Below the pieces are notes generated by a model that saw only the letters and a program-made list of their open reading frames with translations, was not told where the DNA came from and searched no databases. DNA of 64,000 nucleotides from Halichondria panicea (Eukaryota > Porifera > Demospongiae > Suberitida > Halichondriidae): contig NC_087379.1 of NCBI RefSeq assembly GCF_963675165.1, positions 877,001 to 941,000 of the forward strand, read 5' to 3'. A program made the position numbers and the translations under genes. This document shows, piece by piece, positions 8,370 to 58,700 of this stretch (positions are counted from its first letter, which is position 1; every line of letters begins with the position of its first letter).

Positions 8370-10999
8370 TTAAGAAATAGTTGTTGCAGTTCTAATTTTA
8401 TACACAGTAGATTGTATTCCTCCATTGTTGTTCCTTCCCCCAATCATAAGGCACTCTGATGGAGACAGTGACACAGTGGCAGCTCCTGCTATAGGAGATG
8501 GTAGATCACCAACGTAGAGCCAGGAGTCCATCGAGGACGAGTAGGCGTAGATCCTTTGAGTGGCTTCATCTTCACTATCCACTCCACCAACAGCAAAGAG
8601 GGTGTCGGATATCGTTACAGGGGAGGGACAGTAAGACGGTGTGTTGGATATTGTATTCCAGACAGAGTCGGCTTTGTTGGCACTCCCATCATCCTGTCGG
8701 TCTGCTGAGATGAACTTGTCGACTTGAGCAGCACACACCTTGTTTAGAAAATTGCCGTCACTTCCCCCCATTAGGTACACTGTGTTATTGTAGACAATTC
8801 CTCTTTGGAAACCACAAGCATACGGTAGTCTGTCTGTCTCGCTCCACTGGGAGGTGCTGATGTTGTAGATCTCAACAATATCAGTGTAGGTAACAGAGTC
8901 CAATCGACCTCCTGCTACGATCAGATGTGTTGAGAGACTAACGACTGCTGGCCAATACCTCGCTGTGGGCATGGGTGGGATCGTCCGTTTCCAGTTCCTT
9001 CCTTTGTTAAACACGTGCACCACGTTGATCACAGATAAGGGTGAATCCATACCGCCAACTGCTACCAGTTCACCTTTGACCTCTCCTAGACCAAAATAGC
9101 ATACAGGAAGTCTAGATAGAGTTGACCAGACGTCTTGTGGCGGATCGTAACAGTGGACACAGTACTCGTCATCATCGTCATCACAGGCTCCTCCACCATA
9201 GTAGACCTTGCCATTGATGGTTACCGCTAGTCCATGAGACATCTCCACTGGAGCCTCAGAGCACTGACTGTAGGACAACTGAACCTGTAGGGACTGGAGA
9301 ATACAGAGAGTCAATAACTTGTTTGTTGCGTGTAATCAATGATTGTCTATTAATTAAGGGAATGTAATCACATGCAGGTTAACAATGTTATAAGGTTACC
9401 ATGGCAACACAATTATTATAACAGTATCGATCCTGTGGAACATAATTTTCCGCTTATATTATTTAATTTGGCTCTTATATAGGAGTGGTGATTATAGGAG
9501 AATATATTCACATGCTATAGCTAGCCATTATAATAACAAGCCACACTATAATACACACAGCTACTTTGACGAATTACCGAGCATAGCAAAAACAGAATTA
9601 TAACTTTGAGTTCAATTGGAACATTAAATGGACTAGGCACATTAGGTTGACTATACAATAAGAGATACGACGGTACAGATGTGTGCACTTAGTGGTACAG
9701 TGTTGATGAGCTCACCTGTGGTTTGCTGGTCAGGTAGTCTCTAGTTTTGGTTAGCTGGTCGTTCAAACTCTGAATGGTGGCTTCTTTCTTTTGAAGGGAA
9801 GTGTCCTTGGAGGCAAGCATCAAATCTCTGTGAGCGATAGTGGAATCTTTGTCAGCAATTACAGATTGTTTATCTTCGAGTTGACATTTAAAATCTAATT
9901 TAATTTGATCAGTTTCCACAGAGTGCACCAACTGCATACGCTCGACAGCGTTTTCACTTTCTTCTTCTTGTCGTATTTTCTCTTCCGCCAGTGCCTCGAT
10001 CTCTCCTGCTTTCTCCTGGATTGCTGAGTCCTTCCTCACAACCTCTTCCTCAAGCTCCCTCTTCTCTGTCAGTAGGGCACTCACTCGCTGGAGCATCTCC
10101 ACTCTGTTCTCAAAGGAGGGAGGGTGTTCAAGTACCACACCCACCATCCGACCCACTATCTCCGCTGCTCTAGGCCTTCGCTGAGGGTTGTTGCTGAGAC
10201 AGCGCATGATGAGGTCCATCAGAGGGTGGTCTGGGGATAGTTTTCGAAGAAACTCTTCACGTCGTTCAGCTTCTGTAACTGGTATCAGTCTGTCAGGATT
10301 AGCAGGATCGATTCGTGTCTGGCCGATACTTGGTAGTGGCCACTTTGATGTGAAGGTGTGAATCATCATGATCCCAAAGGAGAACACATCCACACTGGTG
10401 TCATAGTGGGGGTTGGCAACCATCACTTCGGGGGGCATGTACGCTGGGGTGCCAGGGGTCTCCGTCATTCGACTCACTTGAAGGGGGGTCAGGTTCAATA
10501 TTCGAGCAACCCCCAGATCGGATATCTTGGCCGTCATGTTGGTGGACAAAAGGACATTGTTGGCTGAGAGGTCTCTGTGCACAATGACTGGTGTTTGGCC
10601 ATGGAGGTAGACCAGGCCCAGTGAGACGTCATGGAGGATGGAGAAGTTGATCTCATCGGGGAGAATACCGTAGCGCTCGAGACAGCTGGTCAAGTTGGTG
10701 GGAAGGAACTCCATGACTAGGATGGGGAACTGAGAGCCTTCCTCAAAACAGACTCCCAGAAACTGGACAATGTTGGGGTGCCTAGTTTGACTGAGCAGGT
10801 GACACTCCTCCAGATACCTTCGTGCTGCATGCCCGATTCCAGTCTCGTAGAGAACTCGGTAAAGCTTCTTGCCGGCACATTTCAGTCCTCGATACTCTAG
10901 CTCCATGACAACAGCGTAGGAACCTCGTCCAAACTCATTCTCAGTGATGCGAATTTGTCTCAGAGTGAACTGCTCGAAAGCTTGTGGATTTACAGCCAT
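8370..10999 (-). CDS. Kinase-coiled coil-kelch gene B
   Basis: Exons are 10999-9716 (428 codons, kinase plus coiled coil) and 9284-8370 (304 codons plus stop), joined across a 431-bp intron in phase 0 for a 732-residue protein. The kinase has GRGSYA, AGKK, HRDLSANN, SDLG and MPPEV motifs and a conserved Arg in the C lobe. The coiled coil is the shortest of the family, missing about 70 residues that C, D and F share. The kelch exon has six Gly-Gly blades (YYGGG, AVGG, VAGG, LMGG, AVGG, MIGG), enough for one six-bladed propeller. No signal peptide or membrane segment exists once the intron is removed, so it is probably cytoplasmic. Non-coding 5' exon ends at 11223. Confidence 0.9.
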
Positions 11000-11363
11000 T
11001 GTCTTCGTCACTGTGTGAATAGAAACCATGCAATAATAAAAATGCAATCCAGCTGGATATATAACAAAAAAGAATCCTTTCACTATGTACGTCTAGATAT
11101 AAATTATTAAAATAATAATAATTATTGCCAAGACTTGAAAAACAAAGCCTTACAGAGAGTGAGGCTCAAGTTTACAGGAGTACGTTATGGTAGGTATATA
11201 AAAGCTATTTAGTTGATCTTACCTGTACTGTATAGAAAGCTTAAAGTTACAGAGCTAGAGAGCTAGAGAACTGTAGCGGCCAACACAACGAAAAAGTCAA
11301 AAAGGAGATACGCCCCCTTCTTTGTGCAAGCAAAAGGGGCGTGGCTACTTGTAGAATACCACA
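11000..11363. promoter_or_regulatory. Divergent promoter, kinase-kelch B / CWF19L1 copy 2
   Basis: This is the same layout as the first module in 364 bp. The minus-strand 5' UTR donor (GTACAG/GTAAGATC) is at 11223-11222 and its acceptor lies just upstream of the kinase ATG. The GC palindrome is at 11311-11346 (CGCCCCCTTCTTTG ... CAAAAGGGGCGTGG). A TATATAAAAG sequence lies near 11197 on the plus strand. Confidence 0.5.
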
Positions 11364-14191
11364 ATGAAAATGTATTAAGGAGCTATCTAGCTAGGTCTAG
11401 TGCAAGTGTACTCACCTAGATCTCCTTCTCCCCTCACTCAGTCTGGTGTGTGGAGATGTGGAAGGTCACTTCAAGCAACTGTTTAGCAGAGTCCGCATCC
11501 TCTCCAAGAACAGAGACTTTGAGGTAGCTACATACAATGGATGCACACACAACAACAGGTAATTAAACGATATTAAATCACCTTCCTCTGACATTTATTA
11601 CACCCCCATGCACAGTGCCTCTACCGACGTTTATCCTTGGCCCGTGTTGGACTGAGCATGGTCAGTTCTATGGAGACTTGTCACGTGATGGAGGAGAGCT
11701 TTGCCCCAATGTCACATGTCTAGGTACAGTGTATGCATGTTGTTAACCACTCTATCAGTACACACATGAGTCACACTCTATTACAGGTCAGCGTGGAGTG
11801 TACAGTGCGTCCAGTGGTCTGAGGGTGGCCTATCTCAGTGGGAGCTACCAGGGGAGGACCTATCAGCATCAAGACAAAAGACAAGGGAGATAATCTATTG
11901 GTCAGTTCACTTCCCAAACACCTGGAGCAGTTTTTGAACTAGTTTTTGTTTCTCCCTCTACCATACTTCATTGACTCTGATGTGTCCTGGCTGGAGGGTC
12001 AGTGCAGTGGAGAGGGCTACCGTGGAGTGGACATTCTCCTCACCTCTGATTGGCCCGGGGCAGTGGACAAGTTCACAGTGGCTCCTGTGAGACCTAGCTC
12101 CCAGTTATTGTAGGATGGACCAGTACCTTAATAATACCTTATGCTCATGCAGGACGGACTGGACCTGAGTGCAGTGGGGGCAAAGCCTCTGAGTAAACTG
12201 GCCATGTGTCTCAAGCCACGCTACCATTTTGCAGCTCTACACCAAACCTTCTATGAGAGAATACCGTACAGGTACAGTACGTCCATCCCTGTAATATTAG
12301 AGTACTTGAGTTTGCTCCTTAAATAGAGTTCTGTTATCCAATTTCTTGAAGTCCGTTGGTATGTTTAATTTTCCAATGTGATTTGACCAGCGATACAATA
12401 AGAGATAAGAGAGTTTCAATTATTTTAGATGTGTGCTGTAATTATACGTACATGTTACATGTCCTCATCTTTAAATCCCTACACAGTAATACCTCCACAA
12501 CTTTTGATGCTAACTGTATTGTGCTTCATTTCATGCAGGAATCACAAAATCCTCCAATGCAAGCCACATCATGTGACACGGTTCTTAGCTTTGGCTCAAG
12601 TGGGAAATCCAGACAAGAAGAAAAGAGTGAGTTGAAATCATTCTAGTCCCATTAGTATTACATGTTATTAATGATGACATCATCTTCATACCTGCAGTAC
12701 CTGTATGCATTCTCTGTCACACCCATGAGCTCCATGGACGAGAAAGAGCTGACTCAGCAACCACCCACTGCCACCAACTGTCCCTACACTGAACTAGTTA
12801 AATCTTTAATTGGTAAGGAAAACGTCGTATTATCCCATAATGTCTAGCTATCGTTGATGGACCAATATACATGTACATTTTGTAGATTGTCCAATTTTCC
12901 AAATAAAAACTTGCGTTATGTAGCACTCTGAGAGTCTTATCTCTAGATATCACCATCCACCATGTTTGCAGAGGTCAAAGTTTATTGTGTACCTACCCCA
13001 CACACTGTGCAGAGGGAGTCTCAAGAGGAGGCTGGGCCTAACTTTTTTTTTGACCAGAGGGCTCTTGATTCCGCTCATCGCAAACAGAAGAGACAACAGG
13101 ATGGAGCACCCCCTGCAAAGAGACGACCCCCGCCCCAGCCCAGGGGGCCATGCTGGTTCTGTCTGGGGGGGTAAGGAGGTGGAGAAACATCTCGTAGTCT
13201 CCATCGGAGATCATGTGAGATAGAGTGTGTTGTACTTGCTAATACTGCACATACAAAATACAATGTAGCTCACAAATAGCAGACCACTAACAGTTTGTAT
13301 TGTATACCCTATATAGACGTACCTGGCTTTATCCAAGGGTGGGATGGTACCAGAGCATGTGCTGGTCCTACCCATCGGTCACTATGCAGCCTCCACTGAC
13401 GCACCACTAGTGAGTTCATGTGCTGTGTGTACCACTGCTGTGTGTGTATAGTCATTGTTTGTATTGTGGAGAGTATGTTTCCATGCTCTGTGTGTACTAT
13501 TTAGCAGTCTGTACTGGTCAGCCTGTAAGCAGGCCACCCTCTATAATACAGCCAGGTTAATGGGCCCCAAAGTCTCCATAGCATGTGTTTGGACCTGTGT
13601 TAGCAGACCACCTCTTTAGTACAGCCACTGTTGGTCTGCCCACTGTGTAAGCAGAGATCACTATACCATATATCATGCATGTACACTGTATGACCTGTGC
13701 TCTATTACTGTAGGAGGTTTTGGAGGAGCTTGGAAAGTTTAAGAGTGCTCTGAGGAAGTACTTCAACAGCAAAGATCAGTCGTGTGTCATCTTCGAGAGA
13801 AACTACAAATCACAGCATCTTCAACTACAGGTCAGTACCGTCAAGGCCGTATTATCATGTCATGTGATTGATACTGTATGGTTGGTGTGTTGAGATTAGG
13901 CTACAAGGTTTTGAGGGCAAACAGAGGAATGTGATTTCTCTTTTTAATCATTCAATGGTTCAGGGACTCTTTCAGCTGCCATAACTTGAATTCTGTGTAT
14001 TCAATTTCAACGGTTTTATGATTTTAGAAAGAGGCCATCTAGCAAAGATAGTGATGTCATACAATCTAGGTCTTTGAAATCGTATTTGTGAAGCCATTAG
14101 CATTCCCAAACTTACATAATTATGTCGAAACATTGTATAAATACGGTACATGTTAGTGTGTGTATGGTAGATGTGTTGACTGATAGTTGTG

Positions 14192-16060: not shown

Positions 16061-16110
16061 AACCTAAGTGATCGATACTTCTCTTTGCCAAAATCTGTTG
16101 GTTTTGCTAC

Positions 16111-17186: not shown

Positions 17187-20100
17187 TTAAGAAATAGTTG
17201 TTGCAGTTCTAATTTTATACACAGTAGATTGTATTCCATTGTTCCATCCTCCAATCATAAGGCACTCTGATGGAGACAGTGACACAGTGGCAGCTCCTGC
17301 TATAGGAGATGGTAGATCACCAACGTAGAGCCAGGAGTCCATCGAGGACGAGTAGGCGTAGATCCTTTGAGTGGCTTTACGTTCACTATTCACTCCACCA
17401 ACAGCAAAGAGGGTGTCGGATATCGTTACAGGGGAGAGAAAGTAAGACGGTGTGTTGGATATTGTATTCCAGATAGAGTCGGCTTTGTTGGCACTCCCAT
17501 CATCCTGTCGGTCTGCTGAAATGAGCTTGTCGACTTGAGCAGCACACACCTTGTTTAGAGGATTGTCGTCATCTCCCCCCATTAGGTACACTGTGTTGTT
17601 GTAGACAATTCCTCTTTGGTCATGACAAGCATACGGTAGTCTGTCTGTCTCGCTCCACTGGGAGGTGCTGATGTTGTAGATCTCAACATTATCAGTGTAG
17701 TCACCATAGCCCACTTCACCTCCTGCTACGACCAGATGTGTTGGGAGACTAACGACTGCTGGTGAATTCCTCGCTGTGGGCATGGGTGGGATTATCCGTT
17801 TCCAGTTCCTTCCTTTGTTAAACACATGTACCACGTTGGATTTAGATCCGAATGAATGCACACCGCCAACTGCTACTAGTTCACCTTTGACCTCTCCTAG
17901 ACCAAAATAGTGTACAGGAAGTCTGGGCAGAGTTGACCAGACGTCTTGTGGCGGATCGTAACAGTAGACACAGTGCTCGTCATCACAGACTCCTCCACCA
18001 TAGTAGACCTTGCCATTGATGGTTACCGCTTGCCCACTAGACATCTCCACTGGAGCCTCAGAGCACTGACTGTAGGACAACTGAACCTGTAGGGGCTGGA
18101 GAATATAGAGAGTCAATAACTTGTGTGTTGCATGATTGTGTAGCTTGTAATTAAGAGCATTTGGAATGTATTACCATAGCAACAAAAAATATTATCAGTA
18201 ATCGATCCTGTGGGACACAAATTATTCTAATTTGAGGGTTATTTATATAATAGTGATTATCATACTGCAACATAATATATTCACAGATTATACGGTAGCC
18301 GATTGATTCTTATTGCCGAGGCATCGCAAACAGAATTTTCAGAATACCTTGGTGGAACGTTAATAATTATACACAACAACTTCCATTCTAAACCTAGGCA
18401 CTGCATAATGTACTTGGCGATCAATTGGAACATTCAACAGTTACCGTAAAAGACCTCGATTTACAGCGACCCTTTAAAATATGCGATAATTCCAATTATT
18501 TTTTAATGTCGTATTCTAAACATGTAAAGGTAAATGTAGCCACTCCCTAGCCTCGATTGTAGCCCACTGGAAAATCAGTGTTTTTAAGCGGCCTGAAATC
18601 AAGGCCAGTAGACTCTGTAAAGTTACCTCCAATTAGATGCGACCCTCTAAATATGCGACACCAGGACTTCAATATAAATTTTCAACCTCTGGCTTCGTAA
18701 TTATTAAAAAGTGTCGCTTTAAATCGAGGTCTTACGGTATACTTACTTCTATTAGAGTGGTGATACAATAAGAGATATGACAGTCATATTTAGGTGCAGT
18801 GGCGTAGGAAGCAATTTCTCAATGGGGGGGGGCTGTAGTTTTTTTAATGAATAAGTGTAAGGCTATCTACATAGTACAGCTTGGATAAGTCATCTCTATG
18901 TGGAAATATGGGGGGGGGGGCTCGATCCAGCAACTGCACTTAGTGGTACAGTGTTGATGAGCTCACCTGTGGTTTGCTGGTCAGGTAGTCCCTGGTTTTG
19001 GTGAGTTGGTTGTTTAATCTCTGAATGGTGGTTTTATTCTTCTGAAGGGATGTGTCTTTGGAGGCAAGCATCGAATCTTTGTTAGTGATAATAAAGTTTT
19101 TGTCTGCTTGCTCCTGTTCCACTTGTGCAGTGAGATTGGTGACATCTGTTTCCAGTTGAGCTATTTTCGTAGCTTTAGATACAAGCTCGTTGTGAGTGTA
19201 GTTGACGTTGGCAATTTGTTGCTCCACCTCTTCAGTGAGTTGCTTACATCGAATTTCTAACCTAGCAATGGTAGTATCTTTAGAATTCACCAGTGCATCT
19301 TTTGTGGCAGCCAATGATTCTTTGAGCTTCAATTTAACTCTGAGATCCTCTATCTCTACACTATGTTCAGTTACTAGTTGATCAGTTTCCACAGAGTGCA
19401 CCAACTGCATACGCTCGACAGTGTTTTCACTTTCTTCCTCCAATCGTCTTTTCTTCTCCGCCAGTGCCTCGTTCTCTCCTGCTTTCTCCTGGATTGCCGA
19501 GTCCTTCCTCACAACCTCCTCCTCAAGCTCCCTCTTCTCTGTCAGTAGGGCACTCACTCGCTGGAGCATCTCCACTCTGTTCTCAAAGGAGGGAGGGTGT
19601 TCAAGTACCACACCCACCATCCGACCCACTATCTCTGCTGCTCTAGGCCTTTGCTGAGGGTTGTTGCTGAGACAGTGCATGATGAGGTCCATCAGAGGGT
19701 GGTCTGGGGAAATGTTTCGAAGAAATTCTTCACGTCTTTCAGCTTCCGTCACTGGTATCAGACCATTGGGATTGGTAGGATCGATTCGTGTCTGGCCGAT
19801 ACTTGGTAGTGGCCACTCTGCTGTGAAGGTGTGAATCATCATGATCCCAAAGGAGAACACATCCACACTGGTGTTGTAGTGGGGGTTGGCAACCATCACT
19901 TCGGGGGGCATGTACGCTGGGGTGCCAGGGGTCTCCGTCATTCGACTCACTTGAAGGGGGGTCAGGTTCAATATTCGAGCAACGCCAAGATCGGATATCT
20001 TGGCCGTCATGTTGGTGGACAAGAGGACATTGTTGGCTGAGAGGTCTCTGTGCACAATGACTGGTGTTTGGCCATGGAGGTAGACCAAGCCCAGTGAGAC

Positions 20101-20472
20101 GTCATGGAGGATGGAGAAGTTGATCTCATCGGGGAGAATACCGTAGCGCTCGAGACAGCTGGTCAAGTTGGTGGGGAGGAACTCCATGACTAGGATGGGG
20201 AACTGAGAGCCTTCCTCAAAACAGACTCCCAGAAACTGGACAATGTTGGGGTGCCTAGTTTGACTGAGCAGGCGACACTCCTCCAGATACCTTCGTGCTG
20301 CATGCCCGATTCCAGTCTCGTAGAGAACTCGGTAAAGCTTCTTGCCGGCACATTTCAGTCCTCGATACTCTAGCTCCATGACAACAGCGTAGGAACCATG
20401 TCCCAACTCATTCTCAGTGATGCGAATTTGTCTCAGAGTGAACTGCTCGAAAGCTTGTGGATTTACAGCCAT
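17187..20472 (-). CDS. Kinase-coiled coil-kelch gene C
   Basis: Exons are 20472-18967 (502 codons) and 18086-17187 (299 codons plus stop), phase 0, 801 residues after splicing. Kinase motifs are intact (GHGSYA, HRDLSANN, SDLG, MPPEV). The coiled coil keeps two heptad blocks absent from B. Kelch loop 1 is short (VCDDEH against nine residues in B), and loops 2-4 read VHSFGSKSN, EVGYGDYTDN and DDDNPLNK. The kelch 3' end (KIRTATTIS) and flank match gene B, whereas the 880-bp intron carries the two MITEs found in D and F, so this copy looks recombinant. Non-coding 5' exon ends at 20665. Confidence 0.9.
18443..18738. mobile_element. ACCGTAA-type MITE in intron of gene C
   Basis: Terminal inverted repeat ACCGTAAAAGACCTCGATTT at the left, matching GAGGTCTTACGGT at the right, about 296 bp. 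The interior holds a second inverted pair (gcctcgattgtagcc / ggcctgaaatcaaggc). Orthologous copies lie at the same site in genes D (27532-27825) and F (56991-57280). Non-coding. Confidence 0.75.
18794..18939. mobile_element. GTGCAGTGGC-type MITE with poly-G tract, gene C intron
   Basis: A segment of about 146 bp has short inverted ends (GTGCAGTGGCG / gcaactgcac) and two long G runs. It lies immediately downstream (in gene direction) of the kinase-exon donor. The same insertion is in genes D and F and absent from A, B and E. Confidence 0.6.
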
Positions 20473-20837
20473 TGTCTTCGTTACTGTGTGAATAGAAAAG
20501 CACGCAATATTAAAAATGCAATCCAGCTGGATATATAACAAAAAAGAATCCTTTCACTATGTACGTCTAGATATATTATTAATAATTATTGCCAAGACTT
20601 GAAAAACAAAGCCATACAGAGAGTGAGGCTCAGGTTTACAGGACAGCTATTCAGTTGATCTTACCTGTACTGTATAGAAAGCTTGGTAGAGGTTAAGTTA
20701 CAGAGAGATAGAGAACTGTAGCGGCAAACACAACGAAAAAGTCAAGAACGAGATACGCCCCCTTCTTTGTGCAAGCAAAAGGGGGCGTGGCTACTTGCAA
20801 GGTTTTGTGCATTATTTAGAATACCACCAAGTCAAGG
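20473..20837. promoter_or_regulatory. Divergent promoter, kinase-kelch C / CWF19L1 copy 3
   Basis: 365 bp between start codons. The minus-strand 5' UTR donor is at 20665-20664. The GC palindrome at 20756-20792 is intact here (ACGCCCCCTTCTTTG, then AAAAGGGGGCGTGGC). The TATATAAAAG block found in module 1 is missing. Confidence 0.5.
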
Positions 20838-26276: not shown

Positions 26277-29200
26277 TCAAAAAATAGTTGCTGCGATACT
26301 AATTTTATACACGGTCGTAGATTGTGTGTTTCCATTATTCAGTCCCCCAATCATAAGGCACTGTGTTGGAGACAGTGACACAGAGGCAGGGTATGCTATA
26401 GGAGATAGTAGATCACCAACGTAGAGCCAGGAGTCCATCGAGGATGAGTAGGCGTAGATCCTTTGAGTGGCTTCACCTTCACAATCCTCTCCACCAACAG
26501 CAAAGAGGGTGTCGGATATCGTTACAGGGGAGGGTCGGTAAGACGGTGTATTAGATATTGTATTCCAGACAGAGTCGGCTTTGTTGGCACTCCCATCATC
26601 CTGTTGGTTTGCTGAGATGAGCTTGTCGACTTGAGCAGCACACACCTTGTTTAGATTCTTGCCGTCACTTCCCCCCATTAGGTACACTGTGTTGTTGTAG
26701 ACAATTCCTATTTGGTCCTCGCAAGCATACGGTAGTCTGTCTGTCTCGCTCCACTGGGAGGTGCTGATGTTGTAGATCTCAACAATATCAGTGTAGTCAC
26801 CATCGTCCATATCACCTCCTGCTACAATCAGATGTGTTGGGAGACTAACGACTGCTAGTGAATGCCTCGCTGTGGGCATGAGTGGGATCGTCCGTTTCCA
26901 GTTCCTTCCTTTGTTAAACACGTGTACCACGTTGGATACAGAGTAGGATGAATCCCTACCACCAACTGCTACCAGTTCACCTTTGACCTCCCCTAGACCG
27001 AAATAGCGTGCAGAAAGTCTGGGGAGAGTTGACCAGACGTCTTGTGGTGGATCGTAACAGTGGACACAGTACTCGTTATCATCGTAATCACAGAGTCCTC
27101 CACCATAGTAGACCTTGCCATTGATGGTTACCGCTAGTCCATGAGACATCTCCACTGGAGCCTCAGAGCACTGACTGTAGGACAACTGAACCTGTAGGGA
27201 CTGGAGAATACAGAGAGTCAATAACTTGTGTGTTGCATGATTGTGTAGCTTGTAATTAAGAGCATTTGGAATGTATTACCATAGCAACAAAAAATAATAT
27301 CAGTAATCGATCCTGTGGGACACAAATTATTCTAATTTGAGAGTTATTTATATAATACTGCAACATAATATATTCACAGATTATACGGTAGCCGATCGAT
27401 TCTTATTGCCGAGGCATCGCAAACAGAATTTTCAGAATACCTTGGTGGAACGTTAATATACACAACAACTTCCATTCTAAACCTAGGCACTGCATAATGT
27501 ACTTGGCGATCAATTGGAACATTAAACAGTTACCGTAAAAGACCTCGATTTACAGCGACCCTCTAAAATATGCGACACCCAATTATTTTTTAATGTCGTA
27601 TTCTAAACATGTAAAGGTAAATGTAGCCACTCCCTAGCCTCGATTGTAGCCCACTGGAAAATCAGTGTTTTTAAGCGGCCTGAAATCAAGGCAAGTAGAC
27701 TCTGTAAAGTTACCTCCAATTAGATGCGACCCTCTAAATATGCGACACCAGGACTTCAATATAAATTTTCAACCTCTGGCTTCGTAATTATTAAAAAGTG
27801 TCGCTTTAAATCGAGGTCTTACAGTACTTACTTCTATTAGAGTGGTGATACAATAAGAGATATGACAGTCATGTTTAGGTGCAGTGGCGTAGGAGGCAAT
27901 TTCTCAATGGAGGGGGGCTGTAGTTTTTTTAATGGATAAGTGTAAGGCTATCTACATAGTACAGCTTGGATAAGTCATCTCTACTTAGAAATATGGGGGG
28001 GGGGGGCTCGATCCAGCCACTGCACTTAGTGGTACAGTGTTGATGAGCTCACCTGTGGTTTGCTGGTCAGGTAGTCCCTGGTTTTGGTGAGTTGGTTGTT
28101 TAATCTCTGAATGGTGGTTTTATTCTTCTGAAGGGATGTGTCCTTGGAGGCAAGCATCGAATCTTTGTCAGCAATAGTTAAATCTTTGACAGAAATAGTG
28201 GACTCTTTGTCTGCTAAACGAGCTTGCTCTTGTTCCACTTGTGCAGTGAGATTGGTGACATCTGTTTCCAGTTGAGCTATTTTCGTAGCTTTAGATACAA
28301 GCTCGTTGTGAGTGTAGTTGACATTGGCAATTTGTTGCTCCACCTCTTCAGTGAGATGCTTACATCGAGTTTCTAACCTAGCAATGGTAGTATCTTTAGA
28401 ATTCACCAGTTCATCTTTTGTGGCAGCCAATGATTCTTTGAGCTCCAATTCAACTCTGAGATCCTCTATCTCTACACTATGTTCAGTTACTAGTTGATCA
28501 GTTTCCACAGAGTGCACCAACTGCATACGCTCGACAGTGTTTTCACTTTCTTCCTCTTGTCGTCTTTTCTCCTCCGCCAGTGCCTCGATCTCTCCTGCTT
28601 TCTCCTGGATTGCCGAGTCCTTCCTCACAACCTCCTCCTCAAGCTCCCTCTTCTCTGTCAGTAGGGCACTCACTCGCTGGAGCATCTCCACTCTGTTCTC
28701 AAAGGAGGGAGGGTGTTCAAGTACCACACCCACCATCCGACCCATTATCTCCGCTGCTCTAGGCCTTCGCTGAGGGTTGTTGTTGAGACAGCGCATGATG
28801 AGGTCCATTAGAGGGTGGTCTGGGGATAGTTTTCGAAGAAACTCTTCACGTCGTTCAGCTTCCGTCACTGGTATCAGTCTGTCAGGATTAGCAGGATCGA
28901 TTCTGGTGGGGCCGATACTTGGTAGTGGCCACTCTGCTGTGAAGGTGTGAATCATCATGATCCCAAAGGAGAACACATCTACACTGGTGTCATAGTGGGG
29001 GTTGGCAACCATCACTTCGGGGGGCATGTACGCTGGGGTGCCAGGGGTCTCTGTCATTCGACTCACTTGAAGATGGGTCAGATTTAATATTCGAGCAACC
29101 CCTAGATCGGATATCTTGGCCGTCATGTTGGTGGACAAGAGGACATTGTTGGCTGAGAGGTCTCTGTGCACAATGACTGGTGTTTGGCCATGGAGGTAGA

Positions 29201-29588
29201 CCAGGCCCAGTGAGACATCGTGGAGGATAGAGAAGTTGATCTCATCGGGGAGAATACCGTAGCGCTCGAGACAGCTGGTCAAGTTGGTGGGGAGGAACTC
29301 CATGACTAGGATGGGGAACTGAGAGCCTTCCTCAAAACAGACTCCCAGAAACTGGACAATGTTGGGGTGCCTAGTTTGACTGAGCAGGTGACACTCCTCC
29401 AGATACCTTCGTGCTGCATGCCCAATTCCAGTCTCGTAGAGAACTCGGTAAAGCTTCTTGCCGGCACATTTCAGTCCTCGATACTCTAGCTCCATGACAA
29501 CAGCATAGGAACCTCGTCCAAACTCATTCTCAGTGATGCGAACTTGTCTCAGAGTGAACTGCTCGAAAGCTTGTGGATTTACAGCCAT
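26277..29588 (-). CDS. Kinase-coiled coil-kelch gene D
   Basis: Exons are 29588-28053 (512 codons, longest of the family) and 27191-26277 (304 codons plus stop), phase 0, 816 residues. GRGSYA, HRDLSANN, SDLG and MPPEV are intact. The extra coiled-coil length is an added block rich in ADKESTISVKD-type repeats. Kelch loops read LCDYDDNEY, RDSSYSVSN, DMDDGDYTDI and SDGKNLNK, with EDQIG before blade 4 and a short tail KISIAATIF shared in type with F. The 861-bp intron holds the same two MITEs as C and F (27532-27825 and 27879-28025). The upstream region has its own MITE insertion. Confidence 0.9.
27532..27825. mobile_element. ACCGTAA-type MITE in intron of gene D
   Basis: Orthologue of 18443-18738. 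The right terminus is mutated (cttacagta instead of cttacggta). Confidence 0.7.
27879..28025. mobile_element. GTGCAGTGGC-type MITE with poly-G, gene D intron
   Basis: Orthologue of 18794-18939. The right end here keeps the expected gccactgcac inverse of the left end. Confidence 0.6.
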
Positions 29589-35928: not shown

Positions 35929-36662
35929 CTATTTGAATGTGAGAGCTCCTACTAGGGCAACTCCTAAGCTGATTGCAGCCACTGTACATGTGAGCCAGCG
36001 AGTAGGGTGGCGGTTCTCAGCTCTCTGGTTTTCAGTTCTCTCTTTGGCTTTCTCAGAGGCATCAATACTCACTGCTCCCTTGATGGCACCCTGGATGTGG
36101 AGAAATAAAAGTCAACAAAAAATAAAAAAACATGCAGTGAAATACAGTAGTCAAATACTTAATCTACACATGCATACAACAATCTCTTACCCAACCGCCA
36201 TGCTCGAGAATCCACTGAGTGAAGTTGTGAAGAAATGTCGTCTGCATGCCATCCAACGATACTGTCTATCAAGGGAGTCTTGTTCTCTTCATACAATCGT
36301 TTCGCTAGTACGCTCGTGAAGAAGAGCAGCACTGCAATCTTGCCCCACTTGATGTCGTCTACCATGAGCCTGGAACAAGGGTTTTGATATTCAGCATAGA
36401 GTTGTTGGTGAGATATGTCCAGCGTCTTCACTCGGCCCTCAATTTCTTGTTGATGCTTCAGTTTCAGGTCTTTACAGCAAGTTTCCAGCGTCGAAATCGC
36501 ATCTTTAAAGCCTTTATTCTTCGCAAGGAGACCCCTCATAAGCTTGTCGTGGCTGTAGATGCATTTCAGTTGTATTCCGTCTTCTTTCAGCACCAGGTGA
36601 TGATGGCTGATGGCACTGCTTTGGGTTTTGATTTGGTGAAGGTCATCTCTTGAATGGGCCAT
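35929..36662 (-). pseudogene. Bcl-2 family gene, copy 1 (frameshifted between BH1 and BH2)
   Basis: Exon 1 is 36662-36191 and exon 2 is 36090-35929. A BH3-like helix (LETCCKDLKLKHQ) lies near residue 65, a BH1-like segment (VDDIKWGKIAVLLFF) near 115-130, then a BH2-like motif (QWILEHGGW) ending exactly at the GTAAGA donor. Exon 2 gives GAIKGAVSID and a C-terminal hydrophobic anchor (TVAAISLGVALVGALTF), as in Bax/Bak and Bcl-2 tail-anchored proteins. A 4-bp GCAT insertion at about 36244-36249 (absent from the other copy) puts BH1 and BH2 in different frames. Anti- or pro-apoptotic class cannot be assigned. Confidence 0.75.
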
Positions 36663-37379
36663 AGTTGAAGGAGACTGGAGTGGAGACTGGAGAGAGTGGA
36701 GGAGCGAGTTAGATTGGAGCGGAAGTTGGTTGGTCGGGATAACATCGATACACTAATACAAAGAGCCCCTCCTTATATAGTACAACCATAACCAAAGAAT
36801 TTGTGGTTTTCTCAACGTCCGGTGTTATAATTGAAATATGAATATCATTAAATATACCACTAAGGAATGTGCTTGAAATTGCAGCTCTGCACGTGCAGGC
36901 TCTATGCGCATGCGCCTTAATTGCATGCAAAATAAAATTGACAAACACTATTACTGCAAGATTCCTTTAAACTGAACCAAAAATGATAAATATGCTTTCA
37001 TACAAAATGTTATTGTCCCTAACAGTTTGTGGTGACTCTTTTCTGACCAGTGCTCTCATGTATCTCCTGTGAGGGTGGGGTATTGTAATCATGGTGACTT
37101 TATCAATCACTTACTCACTGTACTTGGTATTGTCTAGCCTCCTTCACTGGCCTCACTCTCACACATTTACTCACTCACTTGTACTTCTTGTACTTGGCAT
37201 TGGCTGTCTTTCTTTCCTCTCCTCCTTGTACTTCGCAACATAGGTTTACTGTATCAAGCACTGCCAGAACAATGCTTGAACTTGTGAGTAGACCAACCTA
37301 CCCCCCTCAACTTCAATTGTAAACAAAAGATAAACAAAAGTTCCTATCAAAATAATGGCACAATATAAGACTAGCTGGT
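36663..37379. other. Upstream region of Bcl-2 copy 1
   Basis: Head side of the Bcl-2 copy and 3' side of the DNAJC25 copy. Contains gcgcatgcgcc at about 36904-36914 and otherwise nothing recognisable; the matching region of the second block is 48681-49411. Confidence 0.4.
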
Positions 37380-39795: not shown

Positions 39796-42458
39796 TCAAG
39801 AAATAGTTGTTGCACTTTTAATTTTGATACTAATTTTATGCACGGTAGATTGTGTTTCTCTTTCTTTGTTCCATCCCCCAATCATAAGGCACTCTGTTGG
39901 AGACAGTGACACAGAGGCAGCGTCTGCTATAGGAGATGGTAGATCACCAACGTAGAGCCAGGAGTCCATCGAGGACGAGTAGGAGTAGATCCTTTGAGTG
40001 ACTTCACCTTCACTATCCTCTCCACCAACAGCAAAGAGGGTGTCGAATATCGTTACAGGGGAGGAACAGTAAGACGGTGTGTTGGATATTGTATTCCAGA
40101 CAGAGTCGGCTTTGTTGGCACTCCCATCATCCTGTCGGTCTGCTGAGATGAGCTTGTCGACTTGAGCAGCACACACCTTGTTTAGAAAATTGCCGTCACT
40201 TCCCCCCATTAGGTACACTGTTTTGTTGTAGACAATTCCTCTTTGGTCATAACAAGCATACGGTAGTCTGTCTGTCTCGCTCCACTGGGAGGTGCTGATG
40301 TTGTAGATCTCAACGTTATCAGTGAAGTCGCCATCGTCCAACACACCTCCTGCTACGACCAGATGTGTTTGGAGACTAACGACTGCTGGTGAATACCTCG
40401 CTGTGGGCATGGGTGGGATCGTCCGTTTCCAGTTCCTTCCTTTGTTAAACACATGTACCACGTTGGATTTAGAGAAGGATGAATCCAAACCACCAACTGC
40501 TGCCAGTTCACCTTTGACCTCTCCTAGACCAAAATAGCGTACAGGAAGTCTGGGCAGAGTTGACCAAACATCTTGTGGCGGATCGTAACAGTGGACGCAG
40601 TACTCGTCATCATCGTCATAACACATTCCTCCACCATAGTAGACCTTGCCATTGATGGTTACCGCTCGCCCATGAGACCTCTTCACTGGAGTCTCAGAGC
40701 ACTGACTGTAGGACAACTGAACCTGTAGGGACTGGAGAATACAGAGAGTCAATAACTTGTGTGTTGCATGTAATTATAGGCATTTGAAATGTAACTTTAC
40801 TGTTTAGTAAATCATCATACCATGCTTACCATAGCAACCAAAAATATGATTACAAATAGTATCAATCCTGCGGGAAAAATCTAAATTCTAATTTGGCCCT
40901 TATATTGAAGTGGCAGATTAATATAGTCAATGTTATTTGTACACGTACTAGAGCTACATTATATGATTACCGAGGCACCGCAAAAAAAGTTTTTCAGAAT
41001 TTACTTGGCGCTCAATTGGAGCAGTAAGCTTTAGATTTGGAGTAGGCACAACTTCTATATAGAGCAGTAATAATTAGTTGATGAGCTCACCTGTGGTTTG
41101 CTGGTCAGGTAGTCTTTGGTTTTGGTCAGTTGGTTGTTCAAACTCTGAATGGTGGTTTTATTCTTCTGAAGGTAAGTGTCCTTGGAGGCAAGCATCGAAT
41201 CTTTGTCAGCAATAGTCAAATCTTTGACAGCAAGCATCGAATCTTTGTGAGCAATTTGTTGTTCCACCTCTTTAGTGAGTTGCATATATTGAGTTTCTAG
41301 TTTAACCATCATGTCCTGATTTAAAATCAACTGGCCTTTAAGATTTTCAACGATAGCTTGATTTTGTTCCGCTTCAACAGAGTGCACCAATTGCATACGC
41401 TCGACAGTGTTTTCACTTTCTTCTTCTTGTCGTCTTTTCTCCTCCGCCAGTGCCTCGTTCTCTCCTGCTTTCTCCTGGATTGCCGAATCCTTCCTCACAA
41501 CCTCTTCCTCAAGCTCCCTCTTCTCTGTCAGTAGGGCACTCACTCGCTGGAGCATCTCCACTCTGTTCTCAAAGGAGGGAGGGTGTTCAAGTACCACACC
41601 CACCATCCGACCCACTATCTCCGCTGCTCTAGGCCTTTGTTGAGGGTTGTTGCTGAGACAGCGCATGATGAGGTCCATCAGAGGGTGGTCTGGGGGAATC
41701 TTTCGAAGAAAATGTTCACGTCGTTCAGCTTCTGTTACTGGTATCAGACCATTGGGATCGGTAGGATCGATTCGTGTCTGGCCGATACTTGGTAGTGGCC
41801 ACTCTGCTGTGAAGGTGTGAATCATCATGATCCCAAAGGAGAACACATCCACACTGGTGTCATAGTGGGGGTCGGCAATCATCACTTCGGGGGGCATGTA
41901 CGCTGGGGTACCAGGGGTCTCCGTCATTCGACTCACTTGAAGGGGGGTCAGGTTCAATATTCGAGCAACCCCCAGATCGGATATCTTGGCCGTCATGTTG
42001 GTGGACAAGAGGACATTGTTGGCTGAGAGGTCTCTGTGCACAATGACTGGTGTTTGGCCATGAAGGTAGACCAGGCCCAGTGAGACGTCATGGAGGATGG
42101 AGAAGTTGATCTCATCGGGGAGAATACCGTAGCGCTCGAGACAGCTGGTCAAGTTGGTGGGGAGGAACTCCATGACTAGGATGGGGAACTGAGAGCCTTC
42201 CTCAAAACAGACTCCCAGAAACTGGACAATGTTGGGGTGCCTAGTTTGACTGAGCAGGTGACACTCCTCCAGATACCTTCGTGCTGCATGCCCGATTCCA
42301 GTATCGTAGAGAACTCGGTAAAGCTTCTTGCCGGCACATTTCAGTCCTCGATACTCTAGCTCCATGACAACAGCGTAGGAACCTCGTCCAAACTCATTCT
42401 CAGTGATGCGAACATGTCTCAGAGTGAACTGTTCGAAAGCTTGTGGATTTACAGCCAT
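39796..42458 (-). CDS. Kinase-coiled coil-kelch gene E
   Basis: Exons are 42458-41091 (456 codons) and 40722-39796 (308 codons plus stop), phase 0 across a 368-bp intron, the shortest and free of MITEs; 764 residues. GRGSYA, HRDLSANN, SDLG and MPPEV present, with MIADPHYD instead of MVANPHYN after PPE. The coiled coil has its own block (IVENLKGQLILNQDMMVKLE). Kelch loops: MCYDDDDEY, LDSSFSKSN, VLDDGDFTDN, SDGNFLNK; the C-terminus is extended (KISIKIKSATTIS). Read past the donor, the frame ends differently from the other copies. Non-coding 5' exon ends at 42639. Confidence 0.9.
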
Positions 42459-46389: not shown

Positions 46390-46471
46390 CACACACACAC
46401 ACACACCTCCCCTCCCACACCACATGCACACACACACACACACCCCGCATACATACTGCCCACACACACTG

Positions 46472-47986: not shown

Positions 47987-48680
47987 CTATTTGAATGTGA
48001 GAGCTCCTACTAGGGCAACTCCTAAGCTGATTGCAGCCACTGTACATGTGAGCCAGCGAGTAGGGTGGCGGTTCTCAGCTCTCTGGTTTTCAGTTCTCTC
48101 TTTGGCTTTCTCAGAGGCATCAATACTCACTGCTCCCTTGATGGCACCCTGGATGTGGAGAAATAAAAGTCAACAAAAAATATAAAACATGCAGTCAAAT
48201 ACAGTAGTCAAATACTTAATCTACACATGCATACAACAATCTCTTACCCAACCGCCATGCTCGAGAATCCACTGAGTGAAGTTGTGAAGAAATGTTGTCT
48301 GCCATCCAACGATACTGTCTATCAAGGGAGTCTTGTTCTCTTCATACAATCATTTCGCTAGTATGCTCGTGAAGAACAACAGCACTGTCTTGATATTCAG
48401 CATAGAGTTGTTGGTGAGATATGTCCAGCGTCTTCACTCGGCCCTCAATTTCTTGTTGATGCTTCAGTTTCAGGTCTTTACAGCAAGTTTCCAGCGTCGA
48501 AATCGCATCTTTAAAGTCTTTATCCTTCGCAAGGAGACCCCTCATAATTATAAGCTTGGCGTGGCTGTAGTTGCATTTCAGTTGTATCCCGTCTCTCTTC
48601 AGTATAAAATCCACGAGATGATGGCTGATGGCACTGCTTTGGGTTTTGATTTGGTGAAGGTCCTCTCTTAAATGGGCCAT
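47987..48680 (-). pseudogene. Bcl-2 family gene, copy 2 (BH1 deleted)
   Basis: ATG at 48680-48678, exon 1 to 48248 and exon 2 48148-47987. The region between BH1 and BH2 is in the correct frame here (SIVGWQTTFLHNF then QWILEHGGW), unlike copy 1. However about 47 bp covering DDIKWGKIA is deleted near 48388, and a CGA to TGA change follows in the original frame. The BH3-like helix (LETCCKDL) and C-terminal anchor remain. The upstream frame reaches further 5' than the conserved MAHLRED start but is not supported by copy 1. Confidence 0.72.
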
Positions 48681-49415
48681 AGTTGAAGGAGACTTGAGTG
48701 GAGACTGGTTGATTGGAGCGGAAGTTGGTTGGTCGGGATAACATTGATACACACTAATACAAAGAGCCCTCCTTATATAGTACACCCAAACCAAGGAATT
48801 TGTGGTTTTATCAACATGTGTCCGGTGTTCTCTGATTGGCTGCTCCAATAAATTGAAATATGAATATCATTAAATCTACCACTAAGGAATGTGCTTGAAA
48901 TTGCAGCTCTGTGCAGGCTCTGTGCGCATGCGCCTTAATTGCATGCAAAATAAAATTGTTTTTTTTTACAAACACAAAATTATTACTGCAAAATTCCTTT
49001 CAATAAAACCCAATGTTATTGTCCCTAACAGTTTGTGGTGACTCTTTTCTGACTAGTGCTCTCATTTATCTCCTGTGAGGGTGGGGTATTGTAATCACGG
49101 TGACTTTATTAATCACTTACTCACTGTACTTGGTATCGTCTAGCCTCCTTCACTGGCCTCACTCTCACACATTTACTCACTCACTTGTACTTGGCATTGT
49201 CTAGCAGCGCTGTCTTTCTTTCCTCTCCTCCTTGTACTCTGCAACATAGGTTTACTGTATCAACCACTACCAGAACAATGCTTGAAAATATAAAAACTTG
49301 TGAGTAGACCAACCTACCCCCCTCGACTTCAATTGTAAACAAAAGATAAACAAAAGTTCCTATCAAAATAATGGCACAATAATTATAAGACTGGCTAGTT
49401 ACGTTATCGACTCAC
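48681..49415. other. Spacer between Bcl-2 copy 2 and DNAJC25 copy 2
   Basis: Homologous to 36663-37379 with small indels; no gene seen. Confidence 0.4.
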
Positions 49416-53961: not shown

Positions 53962-53973
53962 GCGATTTCCCGA

Positions 53974-54874: not shown

Positions 54875-54876
54875 AC

Positions 54877-55350
54877 AACAACCAGATCACTGAATATAGG
54901 TTATAGTATGTTTCTATACTACTTTGAGCTCATGAGGTAAACAGCACTCTCAAGTGAGTAGGTAAGAACATATTCGTGGGTCTCGTCACACCGACAATAA
55001 ACACCTCTATAACCTTTCTATTGCATACTCAGCAAATGTCTCTTCCACAAATCTGTCATCATACCTATCGAGTTAACACACAAACTGTTCTAGTTCCTGG
55101 AACAATACGTACGGACGTTTCTCTCTCCAATTTGGAAGGTAATTACAAACCAATTAATGACATGTTGAATGCTTTTATTGGTTGCAATATCGGCTGCAGG
55201 GAGGTGTTGGCTGATCCTCTCGTTCTGAATCTGCCCAATCAGATCAACTGGATGTCGTGTCTGGCAACAAAGGACGAGGAGACGAAATCTGCTCTAGAAA
55301 TGAGGAAGAACTTTGAACCATTAATTCATTTGATTTTACTGTCATTATAG
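54877..55350 (+). pseudogene. CWF19L1: CWF19L1 copy 6, 3' remnant
   Basis: Only the last ~28 bases of exon 14 (ITEYR with donor at 54900) and exon 15 (55200-55350; EVLADPLVLNLPN, then EMRKNFEPLIHLILLSL and TAG) survive. The altered C-terminus resembles copy 3. Everything 5' is replaced by unrelated sequence. Confidence 0.8.
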
Positions 55351-55733
55351 ACTGTCCACTTTCACCTTCACTTTTGTAAATATTTCCATACAATGATTTC
55401 TTATATCCCACAGAGTGTGTTGTATGTATTGTTGCTAGGTCTTGTGCATTTGGTCATGTTTTGTGTTGTTGTTATAATACGAGAAAATAATTATGTGAAA
55501 AAATTGTTGTCCATCAGTATGCAAGTACATGTAGTTCAATGGGTATTTTGCAATATCTATTTCATCTACGTATATACGAAGCCCATCATTGCAATCATAA
55601 TTACTAATTACGTACATGCTTGTTCATGCAATGCAAACATCTCATCGATCACAGTATATGAATAATAATTTTTTTATCTTGAACATTTAAGCCAAACAAT
55701 TATATAATTATATAATTATATATACCTAAACAC
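55351..55733. other. Spacer 3' of CWF19L1 copy 6
   Basis: Matches 25888-26276. The hydrophobic stretch after TATCCCACAG (QSVLYVLLLGLVHLVMF) is again present, with a slightly longer frame (from about 55393). Alternating AT sequence at 55690-55725. No gene assigned. Confidence 0.35.
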
Positions 55734-58700
55734 TCAAAAAATAGTTGCTGTGATACTAATTTTATACACGGTAGATTGTTTTTCTTTTACATTGTTCCGT
55801 CCCCCGATCACGAGGCACTGTGTTGGAGACAGTGACACAGTGGTAGCGTATGCTATAGGAGATGGTAGATCACCAACGTAGAGCCAGGAGTCCATCGAGG
55901 ATGAGTAGGCGTAGATCCTTTGAGTGGCTTCACGTTCACTATCCAGTCCACCAACAGCAAAGAGGGTGTCGGATATCATTACAGGGGAGGGCCGGTAAGA
56001 CGGTGTATTGGATATTGTATTCCAGAGAGAGTCGGTTTTGTTGGCACTCCCATCATCCTGTCGATCTGCTGAGATGAGCTTGTCGACTTGAGCAGCACAC
56101 ACCTTGTTTAGATTCTTTCTATCAGATCCCCCCATTAGGTACACTGTGTTGTTGTAGACAATTCCTCTTTGGTCATAACAAGCATACGGTAGTCTGCCTG
56201 TCTCGCTCCACTGGGAGGTGCTGATGTTGTAGATCTCAACATTATCAGTGATGCTACCAGAGCCTACACCTCCTGCTACGATCAGATGTGTTGGGATACT
56301 AACAACTGCTGGTGAATGCCTCGCTGTGGGCATGGGTGGGATCGTCTGTTTCCAGTTCCTTCTTTTGTTAAACACATGTACCACGTTGGATTTAGAGAAG
56401 GATGAATCTATACCGCCAACTGCTACCAGTTCACCTTTGACCTCTCCTAGACCAAAATAGCGTACAGGAAGTCTGGGCAGAGTTGACCAGATGTCTTGTG
56501 GCAGATCGTAACAGTGGACACAGTACTCATCATCACAGACTCCTCCACCATAGTAGACCTTGCCATTGATGGTTACCGCTCGCCCAACATTCATCTTCAC
56601 TGGAGCCTCAGAGCACTGACTGTAGGACAACTGAACCTGTAGGGACTGGAGAATACAGAGAGTCAATAACTTGTGTGTTGCATGATTGTGTAGCTTGTAA
56701 TTAAGAGCATTTGGAATGTATTACCATAGCAACAAAAAATATATGATCAGTAATCGATCCTGTGGGACACAAATTATTCTAATTTGAGGGTTATTTATAT
56801 AATAGTGATTATCATACTGCAACATAATATATTCACAGATTATACGGTAGCCGATTGATTCTTATTGCCGAGGCATCGCAAACAGAATTTTCAGAATACC
56901 TTGGTGGAACGTTAATATACACAACAACTTCCATTCTAAACCTAGGCACTGCATAATGTACTTGGCGATCAATTGGAACATTAAACAGTTACCGTAAAAG
57001 ACCTCGATTTACAGCGACCCTCTAAAATATGCGACACCCAATTATTAATGTCGTATTCTAAACATGTAAAGGTAAATGTAGCCACTCCCTAGCCTCGATT
57101 GTAGCCCACTGGAAAATCAGTGTTTTTAAGCGGCCTGAAATCAAGGCAAGTAGACTCTGTAAAGTTACCTCCAATTAGATGCGACCGTCTAAATATGCGA
57201 CACCAAGACTTCAATATAAATGTTCAACCTCTGGCTTTGTAATTATTAAAAAGTGTCGCTTTAAATCGAGGTCTTACGGTACTTACTTCTATTAGAGTGG
57301 TGATACAATAAGAGACATGTTTAGGTGCAGTGGCGTAGGAAGCAATTTCTCAATGGGGGGGGGGGGGCTGTAGTTTATTTAATGATAAGTGTAAGGCTAT
57401 CTACATAGTACAGCTTGGATAAGTTATCTCTACTTAGAAATATGGGGGGGGGGGCTCGATCCAGCCACTGCACTTAGTGGTACAGTGTTGATGAGCTCAC
57501 CTGTGGTTTGCTGGTCAGGTAGTCCCTGGTTTTGGTGAGTTGGTTGTTTAATCTCTGAATGGTGGTTTTATTCTTCTGAAGGGATGTGTCCTTGGAGGCA
57601 AGCATCGAATCTTTGTTAGTGATAATAGAGTTTTTGTCTGCTTGCTCTTGTTCCACTTGTGCAGTGAGATTGGTGACATCTGTTTCCAGTTGAGCTATTT
57701 TCGTAGCTTTAGATACAAGCTCGTTGTGAGTGTAGTTGACGTTGGCAATTTGTTGCTCCACCTCTTCAGTGAGTTGCTTACATCGAGTTTCTAACCTAGC
57801 GATGGTAGTATCTTTAGAATTCACCAGTGCATCTCTTGTGGCAGCCAATGATTCTTTGAGCTCCAATTCAACTCTGAGATCCTCTATCTCCACAACTAGT
57901 TGATCAGTTTCCACAGAGTGCACCAACTGCATACGCTCGACAGTGTTTTCACTTTCTTCCTCTTGTCGTCTTTTCTCCTCCGCCAGTGCCTCGTTCTCTC
58001 CTGCTTTCTCCTGGATTGCCGAGTCCTTCCTCACAACCTCCTCCTCAAGTTCCCTCTTCTCTGTCAGTAGGGCACTCACTCGCTGGAGCATCTCCACTCT
58101 GTTCTCAAAGGAGGGAGGGTGTTCAAATACCACACCCACCATCCGACCCACTATCTCCGCTGCTCTAGGCCTTTGCGGAGGGTTGTTGCTGAGACAGCGC
58201 ATGATGAGGTCCATCAGAGGGTGGTCTGGGGAAATTTTTCGAAGAAACTCTTCACGTCGTTCAGCTTCTGTCACTGGTATCAAACCATTGGGATTAGCAG
58301 GATCGATTCGTGTCTGGCCGATACTTGGTAGTGGCCACTCTGCTGTGAAGGTGTGAATCATCATGATCCCAAAGGAGAACACATCCACACTGGTGTTGTA
58401 GTGGGGGTCGGCAATCATCACTTCGGGGGGCATGTACGCTGGGGTGCCAGGGGTCTCTGTCATTCGACTCACTTGAAGAGGGGTCAGGTTCAATATTCGA
58501 GCAACCCCTAGATCGGATATCTTGGCCGTCATGTTGGTGGACAAGAGGACATTGTTGGCTGAGAGGTCTCTGTGCACAATGACTGGTGTTTGGCCATGGA
58601 GGTAGACCAGGCCCAGTGAGACGTCATGGAGGATGGAGAAGTTGATCTCATCGGGGAGAATACCGTAACGCTCGAGACAGCTGGTCAAGTTGGTGGGGAG

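Follow-up and report, generated by a model that had tools for sequence, protein, structure and literature searches.

Kinase-kelch genes of the sponge Halichondria panicea: strong indications of adaptive diversification on one predicted ligand-binding propeller face

In a 64,000-nucleotide stretch of the Halichondria panicea genome (contig C3, NC_087379.1, positions 877001-941000; hereafter the window), genes that join a protein kinase to a kelch domain are repeated, and a sequence-only reading of the window had claimed that the kinase half was almost unchanged between copies while the residues right after each Gly-Gly doublet of the kelch half differed sharply. The locus thus raises the question of whether these differences reflect diversifying selection on ligand recognition, as that reading suggested, and what the genes might recognize. 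Comparison of kelch exons across the genome (131 Mb, 39 contigs) argues strongly for selection: one propeller face, predicted to bind ligand, has in all likelihood been diversified adaptively between gene copies.

Kelch exons and the propeller face

Five kinase-coil-kelch genes lie complete on the minus strand of the window, together with a sixth truncated at the left edge, and these form part of a tandem array. They and their relatives are here called family 1; a second kelch family, ~30% identical to family 1, is called family 2. Of the 51 near-full-length family 1 kelch exons, 50 were analysed, and 49 of the 50 were open and retained the acceptor AG, the remaining one (L015) having an inner stop and a lost acceptor AG. 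Pseudogene decay was ruled out because 49 of the 50 exons are open. Removal of L015 and six near-identical copies left 43 exons for the selection analyses; the 51st relative (L095) and L087-L094 entered the structure alignment only, and four partial exons and one exon in two pieces were left out of the set. Residues and codons are numbered throughout by the kelch exon of copy 2 (L001), the reference.

The C-terminal domain of family 1 is a six-blade kelch beta-propeller. In copy 2, Pfam Kelch_1 matched in five stretches (expect value, E, 4.9e-25), six four-strand blades with Gly-Gly doublets are present, and the AlphaFold model (predicted local distance difference test, pLDDT, 92.2) matched KEAP1 in Foldseek (E 6.4e-20). 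The blades differ from one another yet remain in register. All 15 loop strings quoted in the sequence-only reading (blades 1-3, five copies) were recovered in the translated kelch exons, and blades 4-6 vary likewise, as seen both in translated copies and in the entropy profile. Its placement of the variation right after Gly-Gly was correct for the b-c loops but missed the d-a junctions, which are variable too: in families 1 and 2, variation peaks at two sites per blade, the b-c loop after Gly-Gly and the d-a junction. Across the 43 non-redundant copies, the median entropy of the kelch exon was 0.32 bits and all 15 residues above 2.4 bits fell in b-c loops or d-a junctions; at 1.7 bits, the d-a junction that precedes blade 2 was the weakest peak. 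S17, H59, N107, H155, F216, and G264 are the main d-a residues, and up to 15 different residues occur at a single position across about 50 genes. The loops do differ in both sequence and length, as had been stated, but it is chiefly b-c loops 1, 3, 5, and 6 that change in length, and substitution accounts for most of the variation. By propeller topology, the b-c loops and d-a junctions share one face.

Selection on the face

Eighty-five face codons were defined from topology, but after the entropy list, leaving 214 other codons; two stricter codon sets are the KEAP1 offsets described below and the propeller halves, which were divided at the midpoints of the strands in the AlphaFold model. By counting over the 43 copies, non-synonymous divergence (dN) at face codons was 0.266 and synonymous divergence (dS) 0.169, a ratio of 1.57 (bootstrap 1.12-2.18); the ratio was 0.58 (0.44-0.74) for the other 214 codons, 0.26 for c-d turns, and 0.63 for a-b turns. 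With a separate tree for each blade, the likelihood estimate of omega (dN/dS) was 2.12 on the face (likelihood ratio test, LRT, 75.6 against 1) and 0.70 in the rest, so loop sites are not below 1. Four simulations with a neutral face, analysed with per-blade trees, gave face omega of 0.96-1.11 and LRT of 0-2.2.

Selected codons were called at a posterior >0.9 by our own FUBAR-type site test, run on per-blade trees with a stronger prior. This test marked 26 of the 85 face codons and 7 of the 214 elsewhere; in the neutral-face simulations it marked 2, 0, 1, and 1 of 85, with 0 of 214 elsewhere in each. When mapped by strands onto the model, codons >0.9 numbered 29 of 180 in the b-c/d-a half vs 1 of 86 in the other half (P 1e-4), and three further selected codons, 191, 205 (blade 4 insert), and 299 (tail), lie in neither half. 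The selected sites are thus not scattered over the propeller, and the earlier placement of the variable loops on one face is borne out.

Weak-prior site tests, single-tree or per-blade (36 sites each), were set aside for too many false positives. On simulations with a fast neutral face and a tree per blade, weak-prior single-tree runs gave 6, 28, 8, and 10 false sites among the 85 face codons and 3, 20, 1, and 4 among the 214 elsewhere, and single-tree runs with the stronger prior still gave 9, 8, 3, and 10 among the 85; therefore, only the per-blade, stronger-prior run was relied on. It replaced a first half-propeller result of 33/180 vs 0/86 (weak prior), and the first, weak-prior run on family 2 was superseded in the same way.

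The signal is also visible without a tree. L001 and L002, which are 96.1% identical, differ at 19 non-synonymous and 2 synonymous face codons and, outside the face, at 5 non-synonymous and 3 synonymous codons; over eight pairs that are 95-99.9% identical (not independent), the non-synonymous:synonymous counts were 41:7 on the face and 27:22 elsewhere. Among 25 copies with a located donor, face dN was 0.239 vs an intron divergence of 0.072 (from aligned parts, 206 of 300 pairs), with 3′ flank divergence of 0.042 (135 of 300 pairs) and dS of non-face codons of 0.068.

A second kelch family and the KEAP1 pocket

Family 2 kelch exons were found on C1 (15.5-17.2 Mb), C6, and C28, and 27 of 36 copies were kept as non-redundant. 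Counted from Gly-Gly, all 29 codons >0.9 in this family fell between -18 and -12 or between +2 and +9; these offsets cover 90 of 310 codons and were chosen after the profile was seen; 27 of the 33 selected family 1 codons fall at the same offsets. Fifteen selected homologous positions are common to the two families (Fisher P 4e-8). Pooled over six blades, omega in families 1 and 2, respectively, was 4.4 and 16.4 at -15, 4.7 and 4.4 at +2, 8.3 and 4.2 at +6, and 5.6 and 12.3 at +7; family 1 also had omega >3, at lower rates, at -14, -12, and -2, as did family 2 at -7. As judged from these codon patterns, family 2 evolves in the same way as family 1, with its predicted face diversified.

Counted by offset, the selected positions are the predicted equivalents of those of KEAP1's Nrf2 pocket. 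At the pocket offsets, omega was 3.8 (LRT 95) in family 1 and 4.4 (LRT 62) in family 2; at codons away from them it was 0.87 and 0.84. Among the KEAP1 contact offsets (-15/-14, +2, +4, and +7), selection is strong at -15, +2, and +7 and weaker at +4; offset -14 is weak in family 2 (omega 1.5, LRT 0.8), and the non-contact offset +6 is also strong. Offsets from Gly-Gly, with the GGG of blade 1 read as G31-G32, were used because a pairwise MAFFT alignment with KEAP1 slid by one residue at some blades and was rejected; under the MAFFT pairing, the weak-prior per-blade run had 7 of 14 KEAP1 pocket residues on codons >0.9 and 7 not. KEAP1 S602 was not placed because the fragment has no Gly-Gly after it. 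The face omega, the same offsets in family 2, and their match to the KEAP1 pocket together uphold the original suggestion of diversifying selection.

At two other loci, on C11 (6.5 Mb; L087) and C1 (3.79 Mb; L088), kelch exons ~33% identical to those of the window adjoin same-strand kinase matches, and these loci are further subfamilies.

Sequence exchange between copies

Sequence is exchanged between copies, and gene conversion is the simplest explanation, a case that rests on four-gamete incompatibility (0.56-0.82 of informative-site pairs, by distance class) together with long shared tracts (120 of 1213 copy pairs whose identical tract exceeded those of all 200 shuffles; ~6 expected). The decay of linkage between the 30 sites used was weak (r -0.095; 44 of 2000 permutations gave a value this low). 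Four-fold divergence was 0.12 next to selected codons and 0.042 beyond 10 codons away, which we read as old divergence that selection has preserved, the remaining sequence being evened out by gene conversion; faster local mutation may contribute on the face.

Kinase, coiled coil, and Death domain

The other exon encodes a predicted active TKL-like protein kinase. Pkinase matched copy 2 at E 4.9e-41, and the HRDLSANN and DLG motifs, which we take to be catalytic, are present in all six kinase copies. CTR1 and TNNI3K are its best solved relatives, and RIPK2, TAK1, and IRAK1 are in the best 60. The claim of an almost unchanged kinase half holds for the kinase domain (dN 0.020, dN/dS 0.26 over six copies) but not for the coiled coil of the same exon, which lies between kinase and kelch and varies in length (exon product 428-512 amino acids). 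Coil length differs between copies by repeat-like units, and coil dN is 0.093 vs 0.020 in the kinase domain. No membrane-span-like stretch was found in the five spliced proteins (top 19-residue hydropathy mean 1.41), and family 1 proteins are therefore probably soluble and cytosolic. Pfam found no BTB, BACK, NACHT, or NB-ARC domain in the two exons of copy 2, and no clear coding exon was seen upstream of the window kinase exons.

Two family 2 loci were read upstream of the kelch exon: a Death domain and a kinase share one open frame in L096 and occupy two neighbouring frames in L097, and in both cases order and strand are the only link to the kelch exon. Pfam run directly on these two loci found no Death domain; of 22 homologous domains, 13 matched Pfam Death at E <=1 (best 1.4e-8), L096's own not being among them. 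A profile search gave FADD as the best match (E 4.8e-5), and the predicted fold (pLDDT 94.5) gave Foldseek matches led by FADD (best E 0.0092, none passing 0.001). Across the genome 151 matches to this domain, fragments included, were counted, the C1 and C6 regions holding most of them, and from position we infer that other family 2 members share the Death-kinase-kelch architecture.

The array and neighbouring features

In all five complete window genes, the kinase-coil exon ends CCACAG/GTGAG and the kelch exon begins after CTACAG in phase 0; the spliced frames are open, with products of 732-816 amino acids (Table 1). A genome search with one kelch exon gave 51 near-full-length matches at >=75% identity, query included (at least 122 matches were scored in total), 50 on C3 and 1 on C16, the others being 75-92% identical to the query; those on C3 lie mainly at 0.87-1.17 Mb (minus strand) and 1.24-1.72 Mb (plus strand). 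For the kinase, the best 49 full matches besides the query are 90-97% identical, 2 of them with an inner stop. Identical kelch exons (L025 and L026) lie in two C3 stretches, ~1004-1011 kb and ~1026-1033 kb, 22,047 bases apart, whose kinase and Bcl-2-like matches are equal or nearly equal in score; they are either a very recent duplication or an assembly duplicate.

Bcl-2-like genes stand between kinase-kelch genes in the window, and Bcl-2-like matches were located at eleven sites of the C3 arrays, where there are also two fragments, and at a single site on C13. Elsewhere, C2 carries three clustered loci with a silicatein signature (zero in a reversed-pattern control); for the one tested, the best PDB match was silicatein alpha, with cathepsins behind, which points to a siliceous sponge.

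Table 1. Coordinates of kinase-kelch exons, variable parts of the copy 2 kelch exon, and other features, in window positions
Feature	Position	Strand	Remarks
Kelch exon, sixth gene (L012)	1..296	-	First 98 codons, cut by left window edge
Kinase and coiled-coil exon, sixth gene	1259..2752	-	
Kelch exon, copy 1 (L016)	8373..9284	-	
Kinase and coiled-coil exon, copy 1	9716..10999	-	ATG to donor CCACAG/GTGAG
Kelch exon, copy 2 (L001)	17190..18086	-	Reference; AlphaFold model pLDDT 92.2
Kinase and coiled-coil exon, copy 2	18967..20472	-	Pkinase E 5e-41
Kelch exon, copy 3 (L014)	26280..27191	-	
Kinase and coiled-coil exon, copy 3	28053..29588	-	
Kelch exon, copy 4 (L017)	39799..40722	-	
Kinase and coiled-coil exon, copy 4	41091..42458	-	
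Kelch exon, copy 5 (L006)	55737..56636	-	
Kinase and coiled-coil exon, copy 5	57501..58994	-	
Copy 2 d-a junction before blade 1, residues 13-18	18033..18050	-	S16, S17 selected
Copy 2 blade 1 b-c loop, 33-39	17970..17990	-	V33, E37 selected
Copy 2 d-a junction before blade 2, 56-60	17907..17921	-	H59 posterior 0.89
Copy 2 blade 2 b-c loop, 76-84	17835..17861	-	G80, K82 selected; V76 posterior 0.81
Copy 2 d-a junction before blade 3, 103-108	17763..17780	-	N107 selected
Copy 2 blade 3 b-c loop, 124-133	17688..17717	-	124, 126-130 selected
Copy 2 d-a junction before blade 4, 151-156	17619..17636	-	D156 selected; H155 posterior 0.89
Copy 2 blade 4 b-c loop, 172-179	17550..17573	-	D172, D174, P176 selected
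Copy 2 d-a junction before blade 5, 213-217	17436..17450	-	F216 posterior 0.88
Copy 2 blade 5 b-c loop, 232-240	17367..17393	-	232-234, 236, 237 selected
Copy 2 d-a junction before blade 6, 259-265	17292..17312	-	G264, A265 selected
Copy 2 blade 6 b-c loop, 281-287	17226..17246	-	N283, I285 selected; W281 posterior 0.90
Bcl-2-like gene	36162..36752	-	Pfam Bcl-2 E 5e-11
Bcl-2-like gene	48219..48866	-	Open frame stops before conserved region
Open frame unrelated to array	59471..60487	+	Hydrophobic C-terminal stretch resembling membrane anchor; no significant Pfam match
Long CA-rich repeat tract	6886..7578		Several frames open

Comparison with known systems

By the domains tested, the window family falls outside the HNWD, KLHL, and NLR families, and its nearest analogue is the fungal HNWD WD40 receptors. 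In HNWD of Podospora anserina, positively selected WD40 residues are described in the d-a loop and b-c turn (PMC1805685), so that the d-a and b-c residues are under diversifying selection in both systems. HNWD, HET-D, and HET-E (NLR-like, with WD40 propellers) also resemble the sponge family in having a propeller as the known or putative recognition head and in exchange among members (PMC1805685, PMC2873952). However, HNWD proteins combine WD40 with a NACHT signalling domain and no kinase, whereas the sponge family combines kelch with a kinase, and the near-identical repeats of HNWD are reshuffled as units, whereas the sponge blades are distinct and in register. KEAP1 and other KLHL proteins are BTB-BACK-kelch; the two exons of copy 2 instead encode a kinase, no BTB or BACK, and a hypervariable face. 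IRAK/Pelle and RIPK (Death plus TKL kinase) belong to the same broad kinase class as the window family, and the likeness extends to the two family 2 genes with Death and kinase domains (L096, L097), but no Death domain was found in the window family; IRAK/Pelle and RIPK kinases are not known to carry a kelch head. Sponge NLRs (e.g., of Dysidea avara) are reported as large species-specific expansions of candidate intracellular immune receptors, some with Death domains; unlike the kinase-kelch genes, they have a NACHT-LRR architecture, and "kelch" has 0 occurrences in the main text of that report (PMC12909245).

Alternative explanations

Propeller b-c loops are surface loops and part of their variation is in length, as would be expected if they merely tolerated change. 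Yet such relaxed constraint is extremely improbable, and was rejected as the sole cause with face omega clearly >1: the face LRT of 75.6 far exceeds that of the four neutral simulations, face dN is ~3x intron divergence, and the a-b and c-d turns, which are at the surface too, have omega of 0.73 and 0.39. There is slightly more room, though still very little, for diversity that arose with no selection, whether from local hypermutation, from slippage of codons within the blade 1 aspartate run, or from gene conversion. The rise of four-fold divergence near selected codons, the conversion-like tracts in 120 pairs, and the varying length of the aspartate run all fit, but a hotspot would lift synonymous change equally, and face dN is ~2x face four-fold divergence, which led us to reject a hotspot as the sole cause. 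The signal also survives per-blade trees (recombination within a blade lies outside the model), and conversion moves variants but by itself has no preference for non-synonymous ones.

Adaptive diversification may, alternatively, have had an endogenous object, the KEAP1-like face of each adaptor kinase being selected for a different self substrate in signalling or chemosensation, with no immune or non-self role. This is possible but unlikely. KEAP1, one of the nearest solved structures in both sequence and fold, uses this face to bind a self peptide, and adaptive divergence following duplication likewise yields omega >1; against it stand the up to 15 residues at one position in about 50 genes, the extent of face change even between 96% identical copies, and the Death domains in two sampled family 2 genes, which suit defence better than housekeeping.

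Proposed function

Our best reading is that intracellular IRAK/RIPK-like signalling parts have been joined to a KEAP1-type sensor. The C-terminal six-blade kelch propeller would be the recognition head of a cytosolic TKL-type kinase, ligand binding at its face would gather kinases via the coiled coil (or Death domain), and the gathered kinases would set off signalling for defence or cell death, each copy being matched to its own foreign or non-self ligand. We infer such a ligand from architecture, numbers, and mode of evolution. An immune or non-self role, including allorecognition, is somewhat favoured, and the same modest preference applies to the whole chain, that is, recognition kinases with a KEAP1-type sensor head and a defence role, diversified by selection and gene conversion.

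Several observations weigh against this interpretation or parts of it. Selection between paralogues is silent on whether the ligand is foreign, and in two other sponges one Kelch-motif gene each, of kinase-kelch or other type, is described as down-regulated, not up-regulated, after a microbial stimulus (PMC6208332). The window scan gave no Death domain match for the window family (best E 6.6), and a conserved stretch whose terminal CACAG lies 11-13 bases before the kinase ATG in all six copies (e.g., ~20484-20500) resembles a splice acceptor, so the window genes may have a 5′ exon. As to selection itself, seven selected codons (19, 92, 97, 191, 205, 290, and 299) lie outside the 85 face codons; 5 of the 12 focal positions (the first residue after Gly-Gly and the main d-a residue of each blade) reach only 0.81-0.90 in the calibrated test; and the family 2 site test had no simulations of its own. 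Four-fold divergence is raised on the face (0.125 vs 0.079 elsewhere), so that either linkage to the selected sites or locally faster mutation plays a part.

Little is known of the molecules by which sponges recognize non-self. Among the open-licence papers listed by literature searches aimed at such a kinase-kelch receptor family, no title or abstract start describes one, which is weak evidence of absence, and the family looks like an undescribed class of recognition receptor. We would put at about even chances the broader proposal that sponges evolved a large germline-encoded class of intracellular Death/coil-kinase-kelch receptors, in which a twelve-position paratope-like face over six blades arose from a KEAP1-type pocket, serving pathogen sensing or allorecognition and convergent with fungal WD40 repertoires at the same two loop positions. 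The family pairs a defined variable face with a conserved signalling kinase and supplies a list of candidate positions; if the proposal is true, it would represent a new receptor class for animal innate immunity, and kelch and WD40 propellers would have independently become diversifying recognition heads by way of the same loops.

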